Positions 3 to 14,835 of a stretch of 22,905 nucleotides of DNA are shown here, piece by piece. The DNA is from a virus, in the IMG/VR virus record IMGVR_UViG_3300044911_000207, positions 1-22,905 of that record. The stretch is one strand, 5' to 3'. The position numbers and the translations under genes were made by a program. Positions within the stretch are counted from its first letter, which is position 1. Each line of letters starts with the position of its first letter. The notes under the pieces were generated by a model. The model saw only the letters and a program-made list of their open reading frames with translations, was not told where the DNA came from and ran no database searches.

Positions 3-1112
3 TACGAAAGTGATCGTTCAATTATAGCTCAAGATACTGGTGACTTCATTGGATTTGTATCCAAATCAGCTGGTGCTACTAAGTTCTTTGGGATGCAATC
101 CAAAGGTAATCTAGCTGCTGCAGATGTTTCTGAGGTTAGTAAAGTAGTTGCAGGTTACTTACCAAGTGATCTACAGCAACTGATTGTCAATGTTCAGGAT
201 TCTACTGCTGCATTGTATACCATCAATTCAGACTCTATTTACCTGTATAAGTATTTCTCTTCAGGTAATGAGCAACTGATGCAAGCATGGTTCAAGTGGC
301 AGCTATCTAGTTCCATTAAGTTTGTAACAGTCATCAACAATTACTTTGTTGTTGTTGTTAAAGATGGTAGTCAGTATAAAGTACTCCTACTTGACATTAT
401 TCAGAACCTTGAACCTGCTCAGGTTGATGCAACACCTGGTGTCTATACAACTAGACTTGATCACTGTTTTGTCGTTAAAGCTGGTGGTACTATTACATAC
501 AACAGTGCTACAAATAAATCAACCATACCAAAACCATACACCCATATCACTGGTAAAACACCTATTGTGATGACTGTACAGACCATGCAAGATGGTGCTG
601 CTACAAATTATGGTAGTCTGTATACGCTATCAGCTACACCTAATGCTACTGTTACCCATGATGTTATCTTAGAGGTAGAAGTACAAAGTGGTGCTTGGTT
701 GATCTCTGGTGATTGGACAGGTAAGGAGTATGATCTAGTTGCTGGTTATGAGTTTGACTTTGATATTGAACTTCCTCGCTATTTCTATAGAACACAAAAC
801 AGTGTCGATTGGACTTCTTCTTTGACTATTGCTCGGATGAAGTTTGACATTGGTTTCAGTGGTTCTATTAACTTTTACATTAACCGTTACGGTGCTCCCG
901 AATGGCAGTATGTAGCTGGTGTACAAAACGCTGGATACTATCTAGCTAACTCATCCCCTACAATTGATCGAACAACACTCGCCGTGCCTATCCATCAAAA
1001 GAACACAAACTTTAATCTTAAACTAAACAGTAACTCACCTTTCCCTGTATCAGTTAATAGTATGACATGGGAAGGTAACTATGCACCCCGTTATTATAGG
1101 AGGGCAGGGTAA
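3..1112 (+). CDS. Tail tubular protein B (T7 gp12-like), 3' part
   Basis: The reading frame is open from the first bases of the window, so this is the C-terminal part (about 369 codons) of a gene that starts upstream; the Met at 93 is internal. T7 gp12 is about 794 residues and forms the nozzle of the short tail. The visible part is beta-rich, with many Thr, Tyr and Asn residues and no membrane segment. Identity rests mainly on position directly before three internal-core-type genes, the T7 order, and on general resemblance to cyanopodovirus gp12. It ends with TAA overlapping the next ATG by one base (TAATG), so the two are probably translationally coupled. Family call fairly sure; residue-level homology was not computed. 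Confidence 0.75.
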   Translation, partial: YESDRSIIAQDTGDFIGFVSKSAGATKFFGMQSKGNLAAADVSEVSKVVAGYLPSDLQQLIVNVQDSTAALYTINSDSIYLYKYFSSGNEQLMQAWFKWQLSSSIKFVTVINNYFVVVVKDGSQYKVLLLDIIQNLEPAQVDATPGVYTTRLDHCFVVKAGGTITYNSATNKSTIPKPYTHITGKTPIVMTVQTMQDGAATNYGSLYTLSATPNATVTHDVILEVEVQSGAWLISGDWTGKEYDLVAGYEFDFDIELPRYFYRTQNSVDWTSSLTIARMKFDIGFSGSINFYINRYGAPEWQYVAGVQNAGYYLANSSPTIDRTTLAVPIHQKNTNFNLKLNSNSPFPVSVNSMTWEGNYAPRYYRRAG

Positions 1113-2151: not shown

Positions 2152-5100
2152 ATGGCACAATTTAAGAGTTATGCTAATCCCAGGGGATTTAACCCCATTC
2201 AAGTTCCTGATGAAACACAGAAGTACCTAAATCAAGGTAACAACTTTATCAAGTCACTGGCTAATGCAGCACAGTTTGACATTGCTGAAAAGAACAGGCA
2301 ACTACAAGCAGTTACGAATAATAACGATCTTGAAAACGCTAACCGTGATTTTATATTCCAACGGAGTATGGAGAACAAGCAGCGTGTTCAACAAGCTATT
2401 CTTGGTAACTATGATATTGCTGCTCAAAATGCTGAGACTCAAGGTCTTAATCAAGCTAGACTCTACTCTCAGTTAGGTGCTTTCTCTAAGTCAGCAACTG
2501 AAGCTGGTCTTGCTGTTTACAAAACCATCCAAGCAGCAAAACAAGAACGTTACGATAAAGCTGTAAGGGAAGCTGGTGACTCAGCACTCCCTATCATGAA
2601 GGAGTATGCGACTCTTGGGAAGAATGTTACGGATGAAGTGATTAATACTAATCCGTATTTCCAAGGTCTGATTAGAGACAACGGTGTTACTACAGCTCAG
2701 ATTCGTTACCTTGGTGAGAATTATCAGTCTGGTAGGTTTGTAAAAAGTAGGGCTGCAGCTGAACTAATTGGTCAATCAGCTGATGCCTTTATTACCAGTA
2801 ATAGTGATAAGAAGTTTGATATCAATGGTGCACAGATTAGCTTGAACGAAGCTGAAGCTCAAGGTAATCAAAGTGCAGTACGTCAAATCTTATCAAATAT
2901 AGGTACAGATTTTTACCGTGAAAATCAAATAGGTCGTCTTCCTACTGAAACTCAACAGCAATATATCAACCCTTATATTCGCTCTGCTGAGAATCAGATC
3001 ACACAACGCACAGCAGCTAAGTATCGTCAGAACAAATCAAGCGAACTAGCTAATGAAACATTCCTTGCTCGTGATCAGCAATGGAAAGATGCTGGTCCGT
3101 TAGGTGGTCAAGTTGCTGCAGACAGGATTACTGCTGCTAGTGGAGATGCAAGAAACATTGCAATCTCTCAGGAACTTGAGTACCACAACAATAAAATTAA
3201 CTTAGCACGAGTTACTGGTGACGGTAATCCATCCACTGCTATTGCTAATTTCCAACAGTTCTTAGCTGCAGCAACAGTTAAGGGTGGTGCTGAAATGACC
3301 ATGGGCGATGCTTTGGCTGGCAGGCCAGAGATTACTCAACTTGGTGCAACTATCCAAGAAGCACGGGATGGTTACCAACGTAAGTTAGTACAAGATGCAC
3401 AAAGGACTCAGCAGGATGCTTTCATCCTTGAAAGTCAAGTGCTTGCACAAGCTCCACCTCAAACTGCTGATGAAGTGGATCGGTTGTATGAGGAGTTGCG
3501 TAAGAAGCATCCTGGTTATACAAGTGACCGTTTAGAAGCTATCAAACGCAATGAGACAACAGAAGCTAAGGCAATTGCTGAAAACGATAAAAAGTTAGAA
3601 AGATTGCGTGCAGCCGGTCTACTTGTCCCTGATGACTTTGATAGATTGGGTGCTACCCTCAGTCAAAGACAAACATTTGGCCCATATGCTAAGGCTAACC
3701 TCGAAGAACGTCAGCTCAATGGAAACTTTAAAACCCAAATGGATGCTATTGAGAATGCTGTAAAAGGTGTTCCTGGTGTCGTTAAGGGACCTAATAGCGT
3801 TCTTCATTGGACTGTTGGTAATAAAATTAGTCAGCTGCAAAATAAATTTTATGGTCAACTTTCAGCATTGCGTGCAGCTGGTAATACTGACCCAATGTTG
3901 CCAACTCAAGTACAAGCACAAGTCATTAAAGAGTTTCTAGCAAACCCTAATGTTGTAGTAAATGGTAAGGCTGGTGACTTCGGTGGATTTAAAGATATCC
4001 TTGATATCAGTGGTCCCACTGGTGCAGCTTCAGCACGTAATCGCCACATCTTTAGTACTCTTGAAAGATATAGTAGTGCTGGTAATAGCGATAAGTTCCT
4101 TGATGGAACTGGTAATGTTTACACAGTATCTGAGCTTAAAGAAATCAGTGTAGCTTCTAAAAAGCCTGGATGGAAGCCAGATGCCATTGCTTTCAAGTTA
4201 GGCCAAAGTCTTGGTGTCAGCCCGTTGTCCGTTATTAATCGGCAAATTGCAACACTTAATGACCCTAGCATACCCTTTGTTACAATACCTGAACCTCTGA
4301 AGAACTATGCAACAGGCATTAGACCTGAGTTCTTAAAGACGCTGGAAAGGCTGGCCGCTCCACCTCCGCAAGTATCTATCAGGGCTATGGGTAGCACCAA
4401 TGTATTTCTACCTGAAACAATTAAACCGTATAATGGTATTAACATTGGTGGCTTGATTCAACAAGCTGCTACAAAATACAACCTACCTCCTGCTGTACTT
4501 GCTGGATTACTATCCCATGAGAGCGGTGGGTTTGCTCCAGATGTACTATCTGGTCAACGTAAGAGTTCTGCTGGTGCCACTGGTATTGCTCAATTTATGC
4601 CACAAACTGCTGCAGGAATGGGTGTAGACCCTCTTAATATTCCTCAAGCTATTGATGGTTCTGCTAGGTATTTGAGTAACCTTATACGCCATCCAAACAA
4701 CCCAGGCAATAGTCTTAATTGGGCTATCTCAGCTTATAATAGTGGTCCTAATGGTGTTGGATTGTCCCAAGAAAATAGAGAGTATTTCGGTAAAGTTATG
4801 GGACAAGCGTATAAATTTGGACATGGCCAACAAGCACTACAGCATTCTAGCCTTATGCGTTCTAGTATGCGTAGGTATGGTCAAGTTGATTTTGAACGCC
4901 CTTCTTCTGTTAACTTTGAAACCTCTGGTGGTCAGCCTGGTATAGATCTTTACTTTAATAGTAAAAACTTTCCAGCCGTACTTGATGGTGTAGTTAAAGA
5001 TGTAAGCCGTGAACCGGGTTATGGTAACTATGTCGTTATTGAATCTACTGATCCTTTAACTAATCAAAAGGTAGACGTACTGTATGGTCACCTTGCTGAT

Positions 5101-5304
5101 GGTATCTCATTGCGTCCTGGTCAACAGGTTGGTGCTGGTGATATTATTGGTACACAAGGTGGTACAGGTAATGTACGATCAGTTGATGGCACTATTGCTT
5201 CTATTGACTTCCTTGCTCCTGCAACTCGTGGTAGTAAGAGTATGACCCCCTATGCTGGGTTTGATCCTCTCCGCCGTTACGTAGTTCAACAACTTCAACG
5301 TTAA
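2152..5304 (+). CDS. Internal virion protein with lytic transglycosylase and degenerate M23-like domains (gp15 position)
   Basis: 1050 residues. Residues 1-750 are helical, Gln/Ala/Asn-rich core-protein sequence. Residues about 764-885 form an SLT lytic transglycosylase domain: catalytic Glu in LLSHESGG (E790), then GIAQFMP and AYNSGPNGV. Residues about 920-1040 resemble an M23 (LytM-like) peptidase: PGIDLYF, YGHLADG (H980) and a GDIIGTQGGTGN turn. Zinc ligands look lost: the first His of HxxxD is Gln (Q928, D932 kept) and the HLHF motif reads SIDF (1017-1020). In T7 the transglycosylase is at the N-terminus of gp16; here it is at the C-terminus of the preceding core protein. Probably ejected to open peptidoglycan during DNA entry. 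The start has TAAGG nearby. Domain call strong; the exact gp15 equivalence is positional. Confidence 0.8.
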   Translation: MAQFKSYANPRGFNPIQVPDETQKYLNQGNNFIKSLANAAQFDIAEKNRQLQAVTNNNDLENANRDFIFQRSMENKQRVQQAILGNYDIAAQNAETQGLNQARLYSQLGAFSKSATEAGLAVYKTIQAAKQERYDKAVREAGDSALPIMKEYATLGKNVTDEVINTNPYFQGLIRDNGVTTAQIRYLGENYQSGRFVKSRAAAELIGQSADAFITSNSDKKFDINGAQISLNEAEAQGNQSAVRQILSNIGTDFYRENQIGRLPTETQQQYINPYIRSAENQITQRTAAKYRQNKSSELANETFLARDQQWKDAGPLGGQVAADRITAASGDARNIAISQELEYHNNKINLARVTGDGNPSTAIANFQQFLAAATVKGGAEMTMGDALAGRPEITQLGATIQEARDGYQRKLVQDAQRTQQDAFILESQVLAQAPPQTADEVDRLYEELRKKHPGYTSDRLEAIKRNETTEAKAIAENDKKLERLRAAGLLVPDDFDRLGATLSQRQTFGPYAKANLEERQLNGNFKTQMDAIENAVKGVPGVVKGPNSVLHWTVGNKISQLQNKFYGQLSALRAAGNTDPMLPTQVQAQVIKEFLANPNVVVNGKAGDFGGFKDILDISGPTGAASARNRHIFSTLERYSSAGNSDKFLDGTGNVYTVSELKEISVASKKPGWKPDAIAFKLGQSLGVSPLSVINRQIATLNDPSIPFVTIPEPLKNYATGIRPEFLKTLERLAAPPPQVSIRAMGSTNVFLPETIKPYNGINIGGLIQQAATKYNLPPAVLAGLLSHESGGFAPDVLSGQRKSSAGATGIAQFMPQTAAGMGVDPLNIPQAIDGSARYLSNLIRHPNNPGNSLNWAISAYNSGPNGVGLSQENREYFGKVMGQAYKFGHGQQALQHSSLMRSSMRRYGQVDFERPSSVNFETSGGQPGIDLYFNSKNFPAVLDGVVKDVSREPGYGNYVVIESTDPLTNQKVDVLYGHLADGISLRPGQQVGAGDIIGTQGGTGNVRSVDGTIASIDFLAPATRGSKSMTPYAGFDPLRRYVVQQLQR

Positions 5305-5319
5305 CACACAATTACAACA

Positions 5320-8300
5320 ATGAATGAAGACGATATTAGGCAGGATCCCTACCTATTTGGTACGCCAAATTTAAGTCCTGAAGAGGAGCAAGCACTAGCT
5401 GCACAAGCTGCTGCAGAAGCCCAAGAGATGGAAAACATCGAAAGCTTCGCTAATCGGCAACAGCAAGAACAATTACGGCGACCTGCTCCTCAACAAGCAC
5501 AAGGTACATCACAGCCTCGTCCAGCCCAGCCTACGGGTCAAGGGCAACCACAACCACAGCAACAACAGGGTGATCGTAACATCATTCAACAAGCCTTTGA
5601 TGTTTTGGCCGCCCCTGGTCAAGGTGTTAACGACTGGTTTGTTGACACACTAAATTTAGTGCCTGGTGTTAATCTAAGGAAAGCACCTAAGTTTGAAAAT
5701 GATGTAACTCAAAGCCTTAGGGAAATTAGCAGTGTTGTTGTCCCTACCATCTTTCTTACTAAAGGTGCAGGTGCTGCTCTCGGTACTGCTGCTAGTGCTA
5801 GCCGTGTAAAGCTCTTTAGTGATCCATTTGTTAAGTGGGTTGCTCCAAAGATGCTTGGTGCTGGTATAGGTGCTGGTGTTGAGTACGCTGTTGAGACTAG
5901 TCAAACAGACGACAACCTAAGCGGCACACTAAAGAGAGCATTTCCTGCTCAATTTGGTTGGATTTCTGATGATATTGCTACACTTGATAGCGATAGTCCT
6001 GATGTTAAACGTGCCAAAAATATGACTGAAGGCGTTGGTCTTGGTCTTGGTGTTGATTTTATCGAAGGTATTGGTACTCTTGTCAAAGCTCTTCGTGGCA
6101 TCAATCGCTCTACTCAATGGATACCCGAGTCAGAAAAGGCTACAAAGTGGTTCTCAGAGAACTTAGGGGTCGATGTATCAGATGACCTTGAGGAGGCTAT
6201 TGCAGGGTCTGCTGCACGCCGCTCAGACGCTTTGGATGAACTTGGTGAATATAACTTCTCCAAGAATGCTAACCTAGATCAACCATTACTTGGTGTACAT
6301 GATCTTTATGGCTATGAAGAATCAGGTGTTCGTTCTGTCGATAACCTCGGTATTGTTGGTGCTGCTGTTGATGTAGCACGTATTAATAGCAATGCTGGTA
6401 CTGGTTATGGTCGTGTAGGTAGTGTTGTCTCTGAACCTGCACTTAAATTTGGCCTTGAAGTACCTGGTGGACAAGAAGTTATTATTCGTGGTCTTGCTGA
6501 ACAACTTAAAGAGGCTGGTGAGTATGGCTACAAAACTGCATCTGGTAAATACCTAAGCTTCAAAGAGATTAGTTCTGCTGGTGAAGATCTGGCTATGAAC
6601 TTCTATAGGATGGATACCCCGACTCTACGGGAAACCATCAAGAAGTTTCAAACACCTAATCAATACAGCATCCCTGAACTTAATGATGAAGGTTATGCAG
6701 CAGTCTTTAGTTCTATCAAACAACTGATGGGTGATTTTGCTGACATGGATGTGATGAAAGCACAAACTTATGTTGGTACATCATTCGCTGGACAGGTCTC
6801 TGACATGTCTCAGGGTATGCGTTTAATGGAAGGTACTGCTGCTGAAGATCGTGCTCAAGAACAAATCCTAGATCGCCTTGAGTTTCTGATGGCACAAAAG
6901 GGTATGACTTCGTATTCACGTGGTCGTGCTCTTAATATGCTTAACTTGTGGAATCGACTCACTGATAAAGGCAGTGAAGCATATGGTAAGGGTGTTCTCA
7001 CTCGTGCTCGTCTAGCACTTTCTAGTGGAGACATGAGTGCAGAAACTTATTTGAATCGTATTGCTGAGATTCAAGGTGAAGCTAAGCGTACAGTTGACAT
7101 CTTACGTGAAGTCAAAGCTGAGAAGCCTGAGATGTTAAAACCATTTCTGCTTGCCTATGAGCTGACAGACGGTAAAGTAGATACTATTTCAAAGCTTAAC
7201 AACTATGTTAGAAATAGTACAGGTGTATTTAGTAAGGCTTTGATAGACGGTCAAGCTGAGATTCCTTCTGCAGTCATGCGGGGATTCTGGTCTAACGTTT
7301 ACAACTCCACTCTATCTGCAATTGGTACCCCACTTAAAGCTGGTCTTTCTAGTATTGGTTTGTTGGCTGTTAAACCTGTAGCACACGTAGCTGGTGCTAT
7401 GTTGCTTGGTGATCATAAAACCATGCGGCAAGCTTGGTTCCAATATTCAGCAGCTTGGGATACCATTAGCAAAGGCTTTGGGTACATGAACCAAGTGTAC
7501 AAGCGTTCTGCTACTGACCCCTATGTCATGGCAACACGGGAAGACATTGGAGTTGCTGATGAAGAACAGCTGAGAATCCTTAAATCAGTTGCCGATGCCA
7601 AAGCATCAGTAGGTGACTATGGTCCCCAAGTAATGGTTTCCATGATTGAGGAGATCAATGATCTTGCTCAACACCCGTGGCTACGTTTTGGGCAACGTGG
7701 TATGATGGCATTTGATGGTTTTACATCTGCTGTTGTTGGTAACTGGGAAGCACGTACTAGAGCTTGGAATGAAGTAACAAAAGGTGGTGCTCTTGATGTT
7801 GTTGGTAAGCAAGCTGAAGATCTTGCTCAACAAGTCTATCGTTCAATGTTTGACGAGAATGATAACATCACTGATTCAGCTGTCAGGTATAGTTCTGGAG
7901 AGATAGCTCTAAACCTGGATAATCCAGCTAATGATGCACTTTCTAGTCTGATCCGTACTGCACCTGTACTGAAGCCATTCCTTCTTTTTACAAAGACTCC
8001 TCTTAATATGATGAGTTATATGGCTTCTTATAACCCACTTGGTTTGTTTATCAACGAAGTTAACACCTTTAGTCGATCATTTGAAGACATGCCAGCCGAT
8101 CAAGTCATTGATCTTTTAGCTGGACGTGGTATTAAAGCTGGTCCCCATAATGCAAAGTTTGAGTACGATAAAATTCGTGCTGAACTAAAGGGACGCAAGG
8201 CTATCGGAACTCTTGCTGTGATGGGTGCCACTGGTCTCTTTATGTCTGATCGTATTACTGGTGATGGTCTTTACGATAAAGAGAAGCAACGTGTTAGAAA

Positions 8301-9268: not shown

Positions 9269-10690
9269 ATGGCTGTAACTGAAAATCTTTATACAGGGAA
9301 CGGGTCAACCGTTCTCTATTCATTCACCTTCCCATACCTAGAAACCACTGACATTAAGGTAAGTGTCAATGGTACAAATACAAACGCATATACCCTCGCC
9401 AACGCTACTACTGTTCAATTTAATACGGCTCCAGCTAGTAGTGCTGCTATTAGAATCTATCGTCAGACAGATGATACAGCACTACCTGCTACGTTCTATC
9501 CAGGTTCTGCTATTCGTTCTAGTGATCTAAATGAGAACTTTACTCAGAACTTGTATGTAACACAAGAGTCTAATAATAGTTCAACTTCTGCTGCTACAGC
9601 TGCAGCGGCTGCTACTACAACGGCTAACACAGCCCTTAGTAACTCGACTGCAGCTCAGTCTTCAGCAGCTACTGCTATCTCAACGGCTAACGCAGCTAGT
9701 GCAGCGGCGGCAAGTGCTGTGTCTACAGCTAATACTGCAAGCTCTAATGCAGCAGCTGCTGTATCAACTGCTAACACTGCTAATACTAATGCTACAGCGG
9801 CTCTTAATGCTGCTGCAGAGGCTCTTGCCTATACAGTGGTAGCTAACGTAGCAGCCATTCCAGGATCGCCTGTAAACGGTGATGCTATTCGTATCCTTGA
9901 CTCTACAGGTATTCAATCTTTTACACCCCTTAGTGGGCTTCCTGTAGGCTTCATAGGGGATAGTGGTCTTACTGTTGAAATCTACTATAGCAGTGGTACC
10001 AGCTCTTGGGTGTGGGTGCGTTACTACGCTACTGACTCTGATAGTCGGTACCTTAAGACTACTGGTGGTACACTTACTGGTCAACTGAAGGCTGATGATA
10101 GCACCAGTGTTGTAGCTCCTGTCTACTCCTTTGATGGTGATGTAAACACTGGTCTTGCACACCCTGGTGCTGATGAACTAGCACTTGTTACTGGCGGTAC
10201 TGCACGTCTCACTGTGGATCCATCAGGTGCTGTTAATGTACCAGTGTCTTTGTCAGTTGGTGCTAATGCCGTACTGGATGCAGGTGATATTGGTGTAAGT
10301 GTACAAGCTTATAATGCTAATATACTTACCTCTAGTGCCATTGGTTCAACTGTTCAAGCCTACGACGCAGATACGGTAAAGACTGACGTTCTCCCAACGT
10401 TTACTGTTGCTACCCGCAGCACTGAACGTACCATCACTAGTGGTGCATTTGATCTCAGTACTGGCAACCTGTGGACCGTTGGAGCTATCACGGTTCCTAA
10501 CCCCACCAATGCTGTAGCAGGTCAGACCGGAGCTATCCGCATCACTGCTGGTCCTGTGGTGTGGTCGTCTAACTTCAAGTTCCCTGGTGGTACTGCACCG
10601 ACCATTGCGACATTTCCAGCCGTTATTCCGTATTACGTGTCGGGAAGTTCAACCATCCTAATGGGCAATGCAGTTGCGGGGATTGCGTGA
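9269..10690 (+). CDS. Tail fibre protein with T7 gp17-type N-terminal anchor
   Basis: 473 residues. The first ~110 residues match the T7 tail-fibre N-terminal domain that attaches fibres to the tail: NLYTGNGSTVLYSFTFPYL, a VxVNG turn, FNTAPASSAAIRIYRQT, and SSDLNENFTQNLYV. Residues about 107-185 are an Ala/Ser/Thr shaft with 14-residue repeats. The rest is beta-rich with a SRYLKTTGGTLTGQL motif common in phage fibres. T7 gp17 is longer (about 553 residues) and carries its receptor-binding tip; here the chain is shorter and a second, larger tail protein follows, overlapping this stop by one base (TGATG). I infer this is the adaptor part of a split adsorption apparatus. Confidence 0.85.
   Translation: MAVTENLYTGNGSTVLYSFTFPYLETTDIKVSVNGTNTNAYTLANATTVQFNTAPASSAAIRIYRQTDDTALPATFYPGSAIRSSDLNENFTQNLYVTQESNNSSTSAATAAAAATTTANTALSNSTAAQSSAATAISTANAASAAAASAVSTANTASSNAAAAVSTANTANTNATAALNAAAEALAYTVVANVAAIPGSPVNGDAIRILDSTGIQSFTPLSGLPVGFIGDSGLTVEIYYSSGTSSWVWVRYYATDSDSRYLKTTGGTLTGQLKADDSTSVVAPVYSFDGDVNTGLAHPGADELALVTGGTARLTVDPSGAVNVPVSLSVGANAVLDAGDIGVSVQAYNANILTSSAIGSTVQAYDADTVKTDVLPTFTVATRSTERTITSGAFDLSTGNLWTVGAITVPNPTNAVAGQTGAIRITAGPVVWSSNFKFPGGTAPTIATFPAVIPYYVSGSSTILMGNAVAGIA
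9677..9802 (+). repeat. Three tandem 42-bp repeats (14-residue heptad pairs) in the fibre shaft
   Basis: Three in-frame units of 42 bases begin at 9677, 9719 and 9761. Each encodes a 14-residue unit of the form (I/V)STANxAxxxxxxA, and a fourth partial unit follows (LNAAAEAL). Fourteen residues equals two heptads, so this is probably a trimeric helical shaft. The copies differ at synonymous and Ala/Ser/Thr positions, so they are old or diversified duplications. Unit number could change by recombination. Confidence 0.7.
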
Positions 10691-13098
10691 TGAATAACGG
10701 AGAACAGTTTTTTAATACTGCAGCGGGTGGCTACGCCATTCAACGCTCCCTCCGCTTCAACGCACCCGACTCGTCTTTCCTTAGTAAACAGTTCGCGTCC
10801 GATGGGAACAAAAAAACCTGGACGCTTAGCTTTTGGGTAAAACGAGCACGGCTAACATCTGACAACTGTGTTTTCAACGTAAGCAACACAGCTAATTCTC
10901 AGTACGTCTATCTCAGTTTTGACAACAACAATAAGTTTGTTGCAGAAGCTTATAACGGATCTTCCTATCAGTTTGCATTTACGACGACTGAAGTCTTTCG
11001 TGATCCATCAGCTTGGTATCACTTCGTCTTTGTCTGTGACACGACGCAGGCGACTGCTGCAGCAAGAACAAAGCTGTATGTAAATGGTAGTCAAGTAAGC
11101 ATTACTTTTTCCCAGGGAGGCACTCAAAATGCCGATACTGTCGTGAATAGCGGCAGTGGATACACCCACAGGTTTGGGTCTCTGTATGGAACTAGCTGGT
11201 ATTACGGAGGCTACCTCGCCGACATCCACTTCATCGACGGCCAGGCGCTAGACCCCACCAGCTTCGGTGAGTTCTCCGCCACCACCGGCGTGTGGATGCC
11301 TAAGGCGTATAGCGGTAGCTATGGCACCAACGGATTCCACCTTGACTTCTCCGACAACAGCACCGCCGCCGCATTAGGGACGGACTCTTCTGGGGCGGGG
11401 AATACGTGGACTGTCAACAACCTATCCGTCACTGCTGGCGCAGGCAACGACAGCCTCGTAGACGTTCCCACTAATGGCAGCGAGGTTGATACCGGACTCG
11501 GTGGGGAGGTGAGGGGGAATTACTGCACGTTGAATCCGCTAATCAATATTTCCGGGCATACATTTTCAAACGGCAATCTTCAAGTTGTCACAAGTTCAAG
11601 CAACTACGGAACTTTTGCATCAACCGTAGCGGCCCCACCGTCCGGCAAGTGGTACGCAGAAGCGCTTATCTCGGCCACGTCTGGCTATCCACTTGTGGGA
11701 ATCGCTGGAACTGGGTGCACATTTGGAACAACTTCTTACCTGGGCGGCCAGGCAACTATGTATGCGTATTATGGTGTAAATGGAAATAAGTATAACAACG
11801 GGACAAGCAGTAGCTACGGCGCCACCTACGGCGCTGGCGACATAATCGGCATAGCTTATGACGCGGACGCTGGGACTATAACGTTCTACAAGAACGGTGT
11901 ATCCCAAGGGCAGGCGTATAGTTCTATTACTTCTGGATCGTACTATTTTGCTGGCAACGAGTTTAACTCAGCGTCTGGGACGCAGATCTGGAACTTCGGC
12001 CAAAGAAGTTGGGCGTACCAAGCACCCTCGGGCTTCAAGGCGCTCTGTACGGCTAACCTTCCGGCGCCATTAGTCACGAAGCCTAGTGACCTGTTCGATG
12101 TGAAGCTCTACACGGGCAATGGCAGCACGCAGACTATCTCGGGGTTGGGGTTTAGTCCTGACTTGGTGTGGGCAAAGAATCGCAGCAGCAGTTCTGGCTA
12201 TTGGCACACGCTGGTCGATAGCGTTCGTGGCGCGGGTAAGAACCTTGCGTCTAACAGCACAAACGCAGAAGATGGTCCCAACTATCTGATCTCCGCGCTG
12301 AACTCCGATGGGTTTAGCGTCAACGTCAATCCCAACGTCGGAGTCAACGAAAACGGCGGATCACACGTCGCCTGGTGCTGGGACGCCGGCAGCTCCACCG
12401 TCACGAACACACAAGGCTCCATCTCTAGTCAGGTGCGGGCTAATGCGAGTGCGGGGTTCTCGGTGGTTACTTATACAGGTAGTAGCTCTAACTTCACTGT
12501 GGGGCACGGATTGGGAGTTGAGCCGCGCCTTATCTTGATCAAGAACCGCAGTGCTAGTGCCAACTGGTTCGCGCTTACTAAGGCAACTGGATCTTGGCTC
12601 TACGGATTCCTCAATGCCACTGATGCCTTAAATTCCGCTGCCCAGTCCGCAAACTCTTCGACTATTGACTTGGTAAATGCTGCCTATAACTGGTTTAACG
12701 CTAATGGTGACAACTTTGTCGCCTACTGCTTCGCCCCAGTAGCCGGGTACTCTAGTTTCGGCAGCTACACCGGCAACGGCCAAAGCGGAGACTCGGCGCC
12801 GTTTGTATGGACCGGATTTAGGCCGAGGTGGATTTTAGTTAAACCGAATGCCAGCAGCACTTCATGGCTTCTTCACGACACAGCGAGAAATCCTTACAAC
12901 GCATCCGTGTTGGAACTGCAACCCAACGATTCGCTAGCCGAGTACTCCACTGTTGGTGTGGGCGCAGGCGAAAGATACGACATTTTGTCCAATGGGTTTA
13001 AATTGAGATCTAGCAATAACGGCGCCAATCAAAATGGCGTGCAATACATTTACGCGTGTTTTGCGGAGTCGCCCTTCCAATACGCCCGCGCCCGCTAA
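10690..13098 (+). CDS. Putative receptor-binding tail protein (lectin-like, SPRY-like and triplicated domains)
   Basis: About 802 residues from the ATG at 10690 (TGATG overlap); a GTG at 10687 is a possible alternative. Residues about 18-227 resemble a LamG/concanavalin-type lectin domain (TWTLSFWVKRA, WYHFVFVCDT, TKLYVNGSQV, LADIHFIDGQALDP). Residues about 277-454 resemble a SPRY domain (GKWYAEALI, GDIIGIAYDADAGTITFYKNG, IWNFGQRSW). From about residue 473 there are three copies of a ~100-residue beta domain, and the chain ends CFAESPFQYARAR, a tail seen in many phage tail proteins. GC content rises clearly from about 11200 to 13098. Likely role: host surface recognition beyond the anchor fibre. 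Domain names come from motif resemblance, not a search. Confidence 0.7.
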   Translation: MNNGEQFFNTAAGGYAIQRSLRFNAPDSSFLSKQFASDGNKKTWTLSFWVKRARLTSDNCVFNVSNTANSQYVYLSFDNNNKFVAEAYNGSSYQFAFTTTEVFRDPSAWYHFVFVCDTTQATAAARTKLYVNGSQVSITFSQGGTQNADTVVNSGSGYTHRFGSLYGTSWYYGGYLADIHFIDGQALDPTSFGEFSATTGVWMPKAYSGSYGTNGFHLDFSDNSTAAALGTDSSGAGNTWTVNNLSVTAGAGNDSLVDVPTNGSEVDTGLGGEVRGNYCTLNPLINISGHTFSNGNLQVVTSSSNYGTFASTVAAPPSGKWYAEALISATSGYPLVGIAGTGCTFGTTSYLGGQATMYAYYGVNGNKYNNGTSSSYGATYGAGDIIGIAYDADAGTITFYKNGVSQGQAYSSITSGSYYFAGNEFNSASGTQIWNFGQRSWAYQAPSGFKALCTANLPAPLVTKPSDLFDVKLYTGNGSTQTISGLGFSPDLVWAKNRSSSSGYWHTLVDSVRGAGKNLASNSTNAEDGPNYLISALNSDGFSVNVNPNVGVNENGGSHVAWCWDAGSSTVTNTQGSISSQVRANASAGFSVVTYTGSSSNFTVGHGLGVEPRLILIKNRSASANWFALTKATGSWLYGFLNATDALNSAAQSANSSTIDLVNAAYNWFNANGDNFVAYCFAPVAGYSSFGSYTGNGQSGDSAPFVWTGFRPRWILVKPNASSTSWLLHDTARNPYNASVLELQPNDSLAEYSTVGVGAGERYDILSNGFKLRSSNNGANQNGVQYIYACFAESPFQYARAR
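12103..13080 (+). repeat. Three diverged copies of a ~100-residue domain within the tail protein
   Basis: Copies begin near 12106, 12472 and 12766 with YTGNGSTQTISGLGF, YTGSSSNFTVGHGLG and YTGNGQSGDSAPFVW. Each continues with a strand ending in KN or KP plus Ser (LVWAKNRSSS, LILIKNRSAS, WILVKPNASS) and a Trp a few residues on, and closes with an aromatic/Cys strand (VAWCW, FVAYCFA, YIYACFA). The DNA is well diverged, so this is an old domain triplication and not a recent tandem repeat. Confidence 0.75.
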
Positions 13099-13866: not shown

Positions 13867-14835
13867 ATGGTACTGCTGCCAGTTAAGCAGTACTACCCTC
13901 AGACAGATAGTGCAACAGGTCACGGAGATCGGATGTGCTTTAGCTCAACATGTGCTATGGCCATCAAGTATCTCCGTCCTGATGCATTAAAAGGTAGTAA
14001 TGCAGATGATGATTACTTGAGAACAGTACTTAAATACGGTGATACTACACTCTCCACTAGTCAAATAAAAGCCTGTCAGCAGTATGGTGTCTTTGCTTCT
14101 TTTTACCAGAAAGGGACAAGACAAGCTTTACTCAATGAGCTGAAGGCTGGCTTTCCTGTTGCTGTTGGCATCCTCCACAAAGGTCACGTCTCTAACCCTG
14201 TTGGTGGTGGCCATTGGATGCTATTAATTGGTGATGATGGGGAACGTGGTGTCTTCCATGACCCATATGGTGAAATGGATAACGTTAACGGAGGCTATGT
14301 CACTATTGGCAGTGGCGGTAGTAGTGTCCGTTATTCTTGGCATAATTGGCTAAAGCGTTGGGAAGTAGAAGGTAAAGGTACTGGTTGGTTTATGACCTTC
14401 CGCCCAAGTAATACTCCGCAACCAACGGCTCCCGTTACTAACACTTGGGAGGGAGTGATTACTGCCGCTAAGACGGCTGGTGCTAAGTTCCCACAAGTAG
14501 TAGCTGCACAGTGGGCATTAGAAAGCGGTTACGGTAAGCACACCTCTGGTAAGAACAACTATTTTGGACTTAAAGGAGAAGGTTCTGACCGTGAAACCAA
14601 AGAATTCATCAATGGTCAATGGATTACTATTCAAGCTGGTTTTATTGACTTCCCAGACCTACAAACCTGTGTTACCTACCTAGTTGATAGGTGGTACCGG
14701 GACTATCAACGCTATAAAGGCGTCAATCGTGCAACTTCTCCCGAAGAGTGTGCACGACTTCTTGTTGCTGAAGGTTACGCCACCGATCCTCAGTATGCTG
14801 ATAAATTAATCAAACTAATGAGGGAGAATGTCTAG
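13867..14835 (+). CDS. Two-domain endolysin: C39-like peptidase plus glucosaminidase
   Basis: 322 residues. N-terminal domain (about 5-175) looks like a C39-type papain-fold peptidase: C24 in RMCFSSTCAMAIKYL lines up with the Cys of C39_2 proteins (Tyr-Leu 11-12 residues later), H116 in GGGHWMLLIGDD and D132 in FHDPYGE complete a Cys-His-Asp set, and Q8 could be the oxyanion Gln. C-terminal domain (about 195-322) matches FlgJ-type N-acetylglucosaminidases: VVAAQWALESGYGKH with catalytic Glu E219, then KNNYFGLKG and DLQTCVTYLVDRWY. A Thr/Pro linker joins them. It would cut both peptide and sugar bonds of the host wall at lysis. An AGGG precedes the start. T7 instead uses an amidase (gp3.5). 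No signal peptide, so holin-dependent export is expected. Confidence 0.8.
   Translation: MVLLPVKQYYPQTDSATGHGDRMCFSSTCAMAIKYLRPDALKGSNADDDYLRTVLKYGDTTLSTSQIKACQQYGVFASFYQKGTRQALLNELKAGFPVAVGILHKGHVSNPVGGGHWMLLIGDDGERGVFHDPYGEMDNVNGGYVTIGSGGSSVRYSWHNWLKRWEVEGKGTGWFMTFRPSNTPQPTAPVTNTWEGVITAAKTAGAKFPQVVAAQWALESGYGKHTSGKNNYFGLKGEGSDRETKEFINGQWITIQAGFIDFPDLQTCVTYLVDRWYRDYQRYKGVNRATSPEECARLLVAEGYATDPQYADKLIKLMRENV

Follow-up and report, generated by a model that had tools for sequence, protein, structure and literature searches.

What does a peptidase-like domain do in a phage ejection protein once its zinc site is gone? The question is raised by the virus record IMGVR_UViG_3300044911_000207 (positions 1-22,905; the whole stretch of 22,905 bases is called the window below), from a T7-like cyanophage that is a relative of phage S-CBP4. 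Its open reading frame (ORF) 2152-5304 encodes a product that is probably injected to pass phage DNA through the cell wall, and that ends in a lytic transglycosylase domain of the SLT type followed by a domain resembling the M23 peptidases. The evidence supports a lost canonical zinc site next to a transglycosylase that is intact, and the domain probably grips or positions rather than cuts.

The C-terminal domain has, as modelled, the LytM/M23 fold that a sequence-only reading of the window had proposed. Pfam Peptidase_M23 (PF01551) matches amino acids (aa) 929-1008 at 39.7 bits, the cut-off being 28.7. An AlphaFold2 model of aa 740-1050 with 38 relatives has a mean predicted local distance difference test score (pLDDT) of 82.5 and shows the C-terminal part as strands and one last helix; the whole-chain model is weaker (mean pLDDT 72.2, predicted template modelling score 0.28). 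In one structure comparison the C-terminal part matched LytM 4zyb_B (Z 12.7, root-mean-square deviation (rmsd) 2.8, 120 residues), and in a second comparison it matched LytM 2b13_A (Z 13.3, rmsd 2.6, 120 residues). Further matches include lysostaphin, Csd3, the LytM domain of DipM (7qrl_C, Z 12.8, 117 residues), EnvC (4bh5_A, Z 12.1) and SpoIIQ (3tuf_B, Z 12.3). The SLT part of the predicted model matched MltF 4oxv (Z 15.4, rmsd 3.0, 132 residues), and because the comparisons match MltF and LytM the fold assignment holds for both domains. A different fold, which the earlier reading had named as speaking against it, is ruled out by the LytM matches in both comparisons. Its statement that the SLT neighbour keeps its Glu is also borne out: model and alignment A5 place both the SLT fold and the catalytic E790 in the window protein, and E790 is invariant in 24 of 24 rows, window included, three of which (L091, L096 and L110; L-numbers are our handles for collected sequences) have no Pfam SLT match.

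The zinc ligands of M23 enzymes are the His and Asp of an Hx3D motif and the second His of an HxH motif, and catalysis is proposed to involve the first HxH His together with a further His some 30 residues upstream (available part of PMC9662197). Judged by this description the window protein has neither Hx3D nor HxH. Its first zinc His is Q928, and no His at all follows H980, the His of YGHL, which supplies the upstream catalytic residue. By alignment, two of the three zinc ligands and one of the two catalytic His are lost, whichever register of HxH holds. In all 18 MAFFT runs, which are not independent (the same sequences under other settings), Q928, D932 and H980 align with the His, Asp and His of the valid canonical references; two of the nine reference rows in one set (L134, L140) were wrong-strand and ignored. 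HxH falls on I1015/S1017, with the following Glu/Gln on D1019, in 13 of the 18 runs and on T1014/A1016 in one, and the strand was misplaced in four; profile-profile alignment stops before HxH and gives no register. I1015 and S1017 are probably the HxH positions of the window protein. The sequence-only reading had equated HLHF with SIDF, a register (S1017/D1019) that came up in 0 of 18 runs and is probably off by two residues. It was right to place Q928 at the HxxxD His; its wider claim that the zinc ligands are lost stands for that first His and for both His of HxH, and fails for D932, which is kept, as is the catalytic H980.

The substituted site is not peculiar to this phage. Three IMG/VR scans, one GTDB scan, the S-CBP4 and S-CBP2 records and the window locus gave 129 loci, some of them one contig fetched two or three times; the family profile matches 125. 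Family membership was assigned to the 117 loci scoring at least 116 bits; the other eight, at 23.5-35.5 bits, represent five distinct rows and fall outside the family: L061-L063 and L129 are canonical M23, and L064-L067 are another type. Leaving these five of 73 distinct rows (L061, L062, L064, L067, L129) out of the counts gives 68 family rows, which are distinct sequences, many of them close; the full proteins form 52 clusters at 90% identity. Q928, D932, H980, I1015, S1017 and D1019 are each invariant in 68/68 rows, so that the survey of ligand positions in homologues called for by the earlier reading returned identical substituted residues throughout and rules out gene decay in a single phage. 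Invariant columns make up 27 of 134, and the probability that Q928, D932, H980 and S1017 should all be among them is P = 0.0014, assuming alike columns. On this alignment the substituted site is strictly kept across the cyanophage family, beyond chance. No His/Cys column besides H980 is conserved in the 68 rows, and therefore no other ordinary zinc site is possible; a replacement zinc site of the usual kind, the second outcome named as adverse by that reading, is ruled out.

One of the two patterns used in one IMG/VR scan and in the GTDB scan contains Q928 and D932, so that the loci from those scans are not a neutral sample of these positions. An IMG/VR scan with patterns free of site residues gave 51 family loci, 50 of them long enough, and all 50 show the Q/D/H/S/D set; seven others were canonical (L061-L063) or of another Q-type (L064-L067). 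These last (IMG/VR; ORF 2826-5696 in L064) represent a second non-canonical M23, with Q-T-G-[IV]-D, a YGHL-type His and GPHVSTHIN in the HxH strand, and their proteins have PHROG links to tape-measure, minor head and endolysin families.

Pfam profile matches give the same picture. Among 48 representative records 45 are above the Pfam M23 cut-off, and 47 contain one M23-type match each, ending at profile position 77-79 of 96, that is, before HxH; 17 of 21 M23 matches in seven bacterial genomes reach position 96. The 48th record (L120) gave no candidate in the per-record search, though the domain is present in the family alignment. A second, canonical M23 was found in none of the 47 records, most of which are fragments, so that absence from the whole genomes is not implied. 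As to bacterial or prophage relatives, the GTDB scan gave one, the canonical M23 L129, and its two short patterns could miss others. The only phages with the domain in the phages collection at E 1e-5 are S-CBP4 and S-CBP2, both from Synechococcus, and psbA/psbD-type genes (PF00124) occur in 15 of the 48 records.

Substitution rates indicate a domain in use, on which ordinary purifying selection evidently acts. Between the window and its close relative L003 the nonsynonymous rate (dN) of the domain is 0.12 and the synonymous rate (dS) 0.68, dN/dS 0.18, compared with dN 0.10, dS 0.75-0.88 and dN/dS 0.11-0.13 for the rest of the protein. Against L032 and L059 the synonymous sites are saturated (proportion of synonymous differences, pS, 0.93), with dN of 0.21 and 0.56, respectively.

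To judge by what surrounds it from phage to phage, the domain moves as a module among the ejection proteins of cyanophages and is traded between phage lineages. Between the window and S-CBP4 it is 84% identical (dS 0.70), compared with 28% for the SLT region (dS 1.64) and 31% for the body of the gp15-position protein (dS 1.84). In 36 of the 48 representatives the domain is 50-75% identical to that of the window. In these the gp16-type protein, where found, does not exceed 47% identity, nor the nozzle 48%, and the gp15 body, where found, does not exceed 30%; the 12 closest representatives give a mixed picture. The domain sits in a gp16-type protein in S-CBP2 and L118 and in the gp15-position protein of the window phage. 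The S-CBP2 copy is in ORF 0040, and ORFs 0040 and 0041 taken together are the counterpart of a single 1813-aa L118 protein with a gp16-type C-terminal part; the two S-CBP2 ORFs (L009), set against the single frame L118 2892-8330, reflect either a split gene or a sequencing frameshift in S-CBP2. The first 771 residues of the L032 protein, which also carries a DPBB domain, are 49.7% identical to Synechococcus phage S-SRP02, and therefore the module crosses cyanophage lineages; S-SRP02 p045, annotated as amidase by the depositor, has no Pfam match at E 0.01.

Exchange can also be seen at the DNA level. L003 and L028 are identical over six 60-base windows (L003 6786-7145), inside the domain, whose first base in L003 is 6746 and whose gene ends at 7156; four windows upstream of 6726 are 30-42% identical, four just downstream 57-65%, and those further on 72-88%. 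The tract reflects recombination that was very recent and domain-exact or, with lower probability, an artefact of assembly. L084/L085 are a milder case (domain 99.4%, upstream 77.7%, downstream 94.5%), found in a pairwise flank comparison that skipped eight loci missed by the motif search, L003 and L028 among them.

The partners of the domain vary as well. A Pfam survey of 48 representative proteins of at least 700 aa (E 0.001) found M23 in 46, SLT in 19, DPBB in six and glucosaminidase in one; each of the 19 SLT matches falls in a frame as long as the family protein. In L032 and L057 an RlpA-like DPBB (‘lytic transglycolase’) domain is placed after the LytM-like domain. In 40 of the 48 proteins no more than 10 aa separate the end of the domain from the C-terminus, and in the other eight it is internal.

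The gp15-position protein was also compared in nine other phages, none of which has the family's domain there. S-SRP01 has a glucosaminidase and a canonical M23 (HEGND 929, AHL 981, HVHLE 1019). S-CBP1 (L152) has a glucosaminidase and then an M23-like C-terminal stretch with HGID and LHG and no HxH, apparently a truncated M23. Pfam matches elsewhere are SLT_3 in S-CBP3, Hydrolase_2 in S-RIP2 (the same, below cut-off, in S-B28) and Phage_lysozyme2 in S-CBP2; the proteins of P-SSP2, P-SSP7 and MedDCM-OCT-S28-C3 have no Pfam match. Those of S-CBP3 and MedDCM-OCT-S28-C3 end in an HxxGxAxD stretch that may resemble M15-type peptidases, a likeness unsupported by search. Outside this set, ORF28 (1058 aa) of Anabaena phage A-4L (Saffermanviridae), in the corresponding place by gene order, has an intact M23 (HAGED, FAHL, YHLHWE; Pfam 77.1 bits). 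PDB entry 9k2v (title ‘Cyanophage A4 pre-ejectosome’) includes an ‘Internal protein’ of 1058 residues whose M23 match (E 0.0096) covers 680-741, as it does in ORF28; we equated the two by length, match position and phage name. From S-SRP01 and A-4L it follows that the gp15 place can hold a wall-cutting M23.

We infer that the window domain lacks a catalytic zinc and does not cleave through the M23 mechanism. The suggestion of the earlier reading, that this putative pseudo-endopeptidase binds peptidoglycan or has a structural role, is plausible. We tentatively prefer, at somewhat short of an even chance, a fixed non-zinc LytM-fold pseudo-endopeptidase whose groove binds a constant ligand of the envelope, most likely a peptidoglycan peptide. 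On ejection the protein would enter the periplasm along with the core proteins, and its old substrate groove (Q928, D932, H980, S1017, D1019) would there bind a ligand that stays constant while the surrounding phage proteins change. The peptide moiety of cyanobacterial peptidoglycan is the most likely such ligand, and its binding would keep the ejection channel at the wall, together with any glycan-cutting domain linked to it; in phages like that of the window, the SLT domain would meanwhile open the glycan strand. A groove conserved amid changing phage proteins points to a constant partner outside the phage, and wall binding without cutting is favoured because the usual ligand of the fold is peptidoglycan peptide.

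Several observations weigh against this wall-binding proposal. The dS of the domain (0.70 to S-CBP4, 0.51 to L012) is below the 1.5-1.9 of the rest of the protein, so that its identity comes partly from exchange, not constraint. Some of the flanking proteins scored as not found reflect short contig flanks, and relative to L003 the domain is at 82%, no higher than the body of the gp15-position protein (84%) and the gp16-type protein (91%). A glycan hydrolase occurs in the same protein in at most 26 of the 48 representatives by Pfam; helping a linked hydrolase therefore cannot be the only job of the domain. The HxH strand has modest model confidence, the block mean pLDDT being 77 in the partial model and 51 in the whole chain. 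The canonical M23s are distant from the family profile (S-SRP01 3.4 bits, A-4L 17.3 bits), and so show what the slot may contain rather than a direct ancestor. Finally, the groove may dock at a conserved site on another virion protein such as portal or capsid.

The strongest rival is an activator like DipM or EnvC, in which the degenerate groove would dock on a linked or co-ejected glycan hydrolase (SLT, DPBB or lysozyme-like) and switch it on. It has a precedent in the inactive LytM domain of DipM, which binds the soluble lytic transglycosylase SdpA and stimulates it via its degenerate-site groove (available part of PMC10336132), and the model resembles DipM and EnvC about as well as LytM. 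SLT is in the same protein in 19 of the 48 representatives; elsewhere the partner is DPBB, glucosaminidase or unrecognised, and a surface made for docking on one partner would be expected to change along with it. The domain, however, keeps its 84% identity between the window and S-CBP4 beside an SLT region at 28%. DipM did not stimulate E. coli Slt (same source, same part), and such activation is therefore partner-specific. We regard the activator as unlikely, though a serious contender.

More doubtful is a purely structural module, one that serves assembly or docking in the core or periplasmic channel and binds no wall component. SpoIIQ, whose LytM fold is part of the SpoIIQ-SpoIIIAH pore complex, is among the structural matches, the domain usually lies near the C-terminus, and the solved A4 pre-ejectosome has an internal protein with an M23 match. 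A fixed place in one assembly fits poorly, however, with a domain found in two different ejection proteins and internal in eight of 48, with neighbouring virion proteins that diverge much faster, and with nine other gp15-position proteins that do without it.

An unusual enzyme, still able to cut by means of a novel catalytic or metal site (e.g. for another divalent metal) made up of Q928, D932, H980, S1017 and D1019, has a small chance of being correct, and we give an equally small one to the broader possibility of an M23-fold phage-entry enzyme that uses this set, in place of the canonical zinc triad, to cut or modify the peptidoglycan of cyanobacteria. In its favour, the residues at the substituted positions are polar and invariant, not drifting, the original site retains D932 and H980, and the gp15-position proteins of several other cyanophages have hydrolase domains. 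Set against these are the absence of the first ligand His, of both His of HxH and of any other conserved His/Cys, and, if the favoured register is right, an Ile (1015) in 68/68 rows at the position expected to hold the catalytic His. That the domain is a decaying, functionless remnant on its way out is very improbable and is contradicted as a general account by the site conservation: ligands have been lost, nine related gp15-position proteins lack the domain and that of S-CBP1 ends in an apparent truncated M23, but dN/dS is near that of the rest of the protein and the site residues are invariant at a divergence where synonymous sites are saturated.

The window shows the T7-type core-protein gene order (nozzle, gp14, gp15, gp16) by Pfam, PHROG and synteny with S-CBP4, followed downstream by tail fibre genes, an endolysin and a T7-type terminase (Table 1). 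The phrog_24152 match spans the full length of ORF 2152-5304, and the whole ORF aligns with an S-CBP4 hypothetical protein at 36.2% identity; for the gp16-type protein, identity to the internal core protein of S-CBP4 is 64.8%. T7 gp15 is not among the 50 matches listed for the model, a list dominated by single domains, and the helical part has modest confidence. A full-length profile match to SMC3 was taken as coiled-coil noise. Elsewhere in the window, 13867-14835 encodes a putative endolysin with a weak C70/C39-like cysteine-peptidase N-terminus and a glucosaminidase C-terminus, and 10687-13098 an 803-aa virion protein with SPRY and DUF7483 domains, which adjoins the T7-type tail fibre and lies in a stretch of locally higher G+C.

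Table 1. Coordinates of the LytM-like domain, its site residues and neighbouring features in the window
Feature	Position	Strand	Basis
LytM-fold (M23-like) domain without canonical zinc site, aa 912-1050 (predicted)	4885..5301	+	Pfam PF01551; LytM 2b13_A
Q928, replaces first zinc His of Hx3D	4933..4935	+	Q in 68/68 family rows
D932, retained Asp of Hx3D	4945..4947	+	68/68
H980, retained His of YGHL, LytM His260 position	5089..5091	+	68/68; sole conserved His/Cys column
I1015, aligned with first (catalytic) His of HxH	5194..5196	+	Ile in 68/68; register by MAFFT
S1017, aligned with zinc-ligand His of HxH	5200..5202	+	Ser in 68/68; register by MAFFT
D1019, aligned with Glu/Gln after HxH	5206..5208	+	Asp in 68/68; register by MAFFT
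SLT lytic transglycosylase domain, aa 768-874	4453..4773	+	Pfam PF01464 50.1 bits; MltF match
E790, catalytic Glu of SLT	4519..4521	+	invariant in 24/24 rows of alignment A5
Mostly helical part (predicted), aa 1-740	2152..4371	+	AlphaFold2 whole-chain model
gp15-position internal virion (ejection) protein, 1050 aa, C-terminal SLT and LytM-like domains	2152..5304	+	phrog_24152; synteny with S-CBP4
Tail nozzle protein, 5′ end cut by window	3..1112	+	Pfam PF25675 160.7 bits
gp14-position protein, 343 aa	1112..2143	+	position; phrog_20153
gp16-type internal virion protein, 1309 aa	5320..9249	+	phrog_6651 1175 bits

The domain shares with the LytM/M23B zinc endopeptidases (PF01551) its fold, a Pfam score over the cut-off, the Asp of Hx3D and the His of YGHL, and differs from them by the Gln for the first His, the absent HxH and the lack of any replacement His/Cys. 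It belongs with the LytM factors of the DipM/EnvC type if these are defined by a LytM fold with lost zinc ligands: DipM, EnvC, NlpD and ActS likewise have conserved residues at the old site, where they are catalytically inactive, and DipM acts on an SLT-type enzyme (available part of PMC10336132). Those proteins, however, are regulators of the host cell envelope, whereas here we have a covalent module of a phage virion protein with its own invariant Q/D/H/I/S/D set, known from sequence and model. A glycan-cutting domain and an M23-fold domain are likewise combined in one virion protein in phi29 gp13 (3csq_A, Z 10.4, 122 residues) and in SPbeta YomI, which we take to be the CwlP of the literature. 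The SLT and M23 domains of YomI are ~29% identical to the window protein over aa 769-1007 and, unlike the window domain, keep HKGTD, H and HLH. gp13 and CwlP are listed as D,D-endopeptidases (PMC9662197, part available).

A-4L ORF28, a cyanophage internal core protein of similar length with an M23 domain, differs in having a complete zinc set, in scoring only 17.3 bits to the family profile and in superposing poorly over the whole chain (rmsd 26.7). With T7 gp15/gp16 the window shares the gene order and a transglycosylase in the ejectosome, but in T7 this enzyme is in gp16, and here the SLT and LytM-like domains are in the gp15-position protein. T7 gp15 and gp16 leave the head and build a periplasmic tunnel, and muralytic domains swap between gp15 and gp16 homologues; the available part of the T7 ejection review that reports this does not contain the word ‘peptidase’ (PMC8954989). 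Neither ‘peptidase’ nor ‘transglycosylase’ occurs in the available text of the S-CBP4 genome paper (PMC4646655), and in the literature covered (titles and abstract starts; open-access text) we found no description of a zinc-less M23 domain in cyanophage ejection proteins.

Degenerate LytM domains are known in bacteria as regulators of wall enzymes; the titles and abstract starts covered describe none fixed in phage ejection proteins. In the present case one is fixed throughout a family of viral ejection proteins and traded as a unit, in a protein type that in some other cyanophages has an intact zinc M23. Zinc and non-zinc forms of the LytM fold in the same machine offer a comparison for the wall-facing tasks of the podophage ejectosome, which may be to cut cross-links, to hold the wall or to switch on a transglycosylase, and the cyanophage pre-ejectosome structure 9k2v makes the question directly testable.

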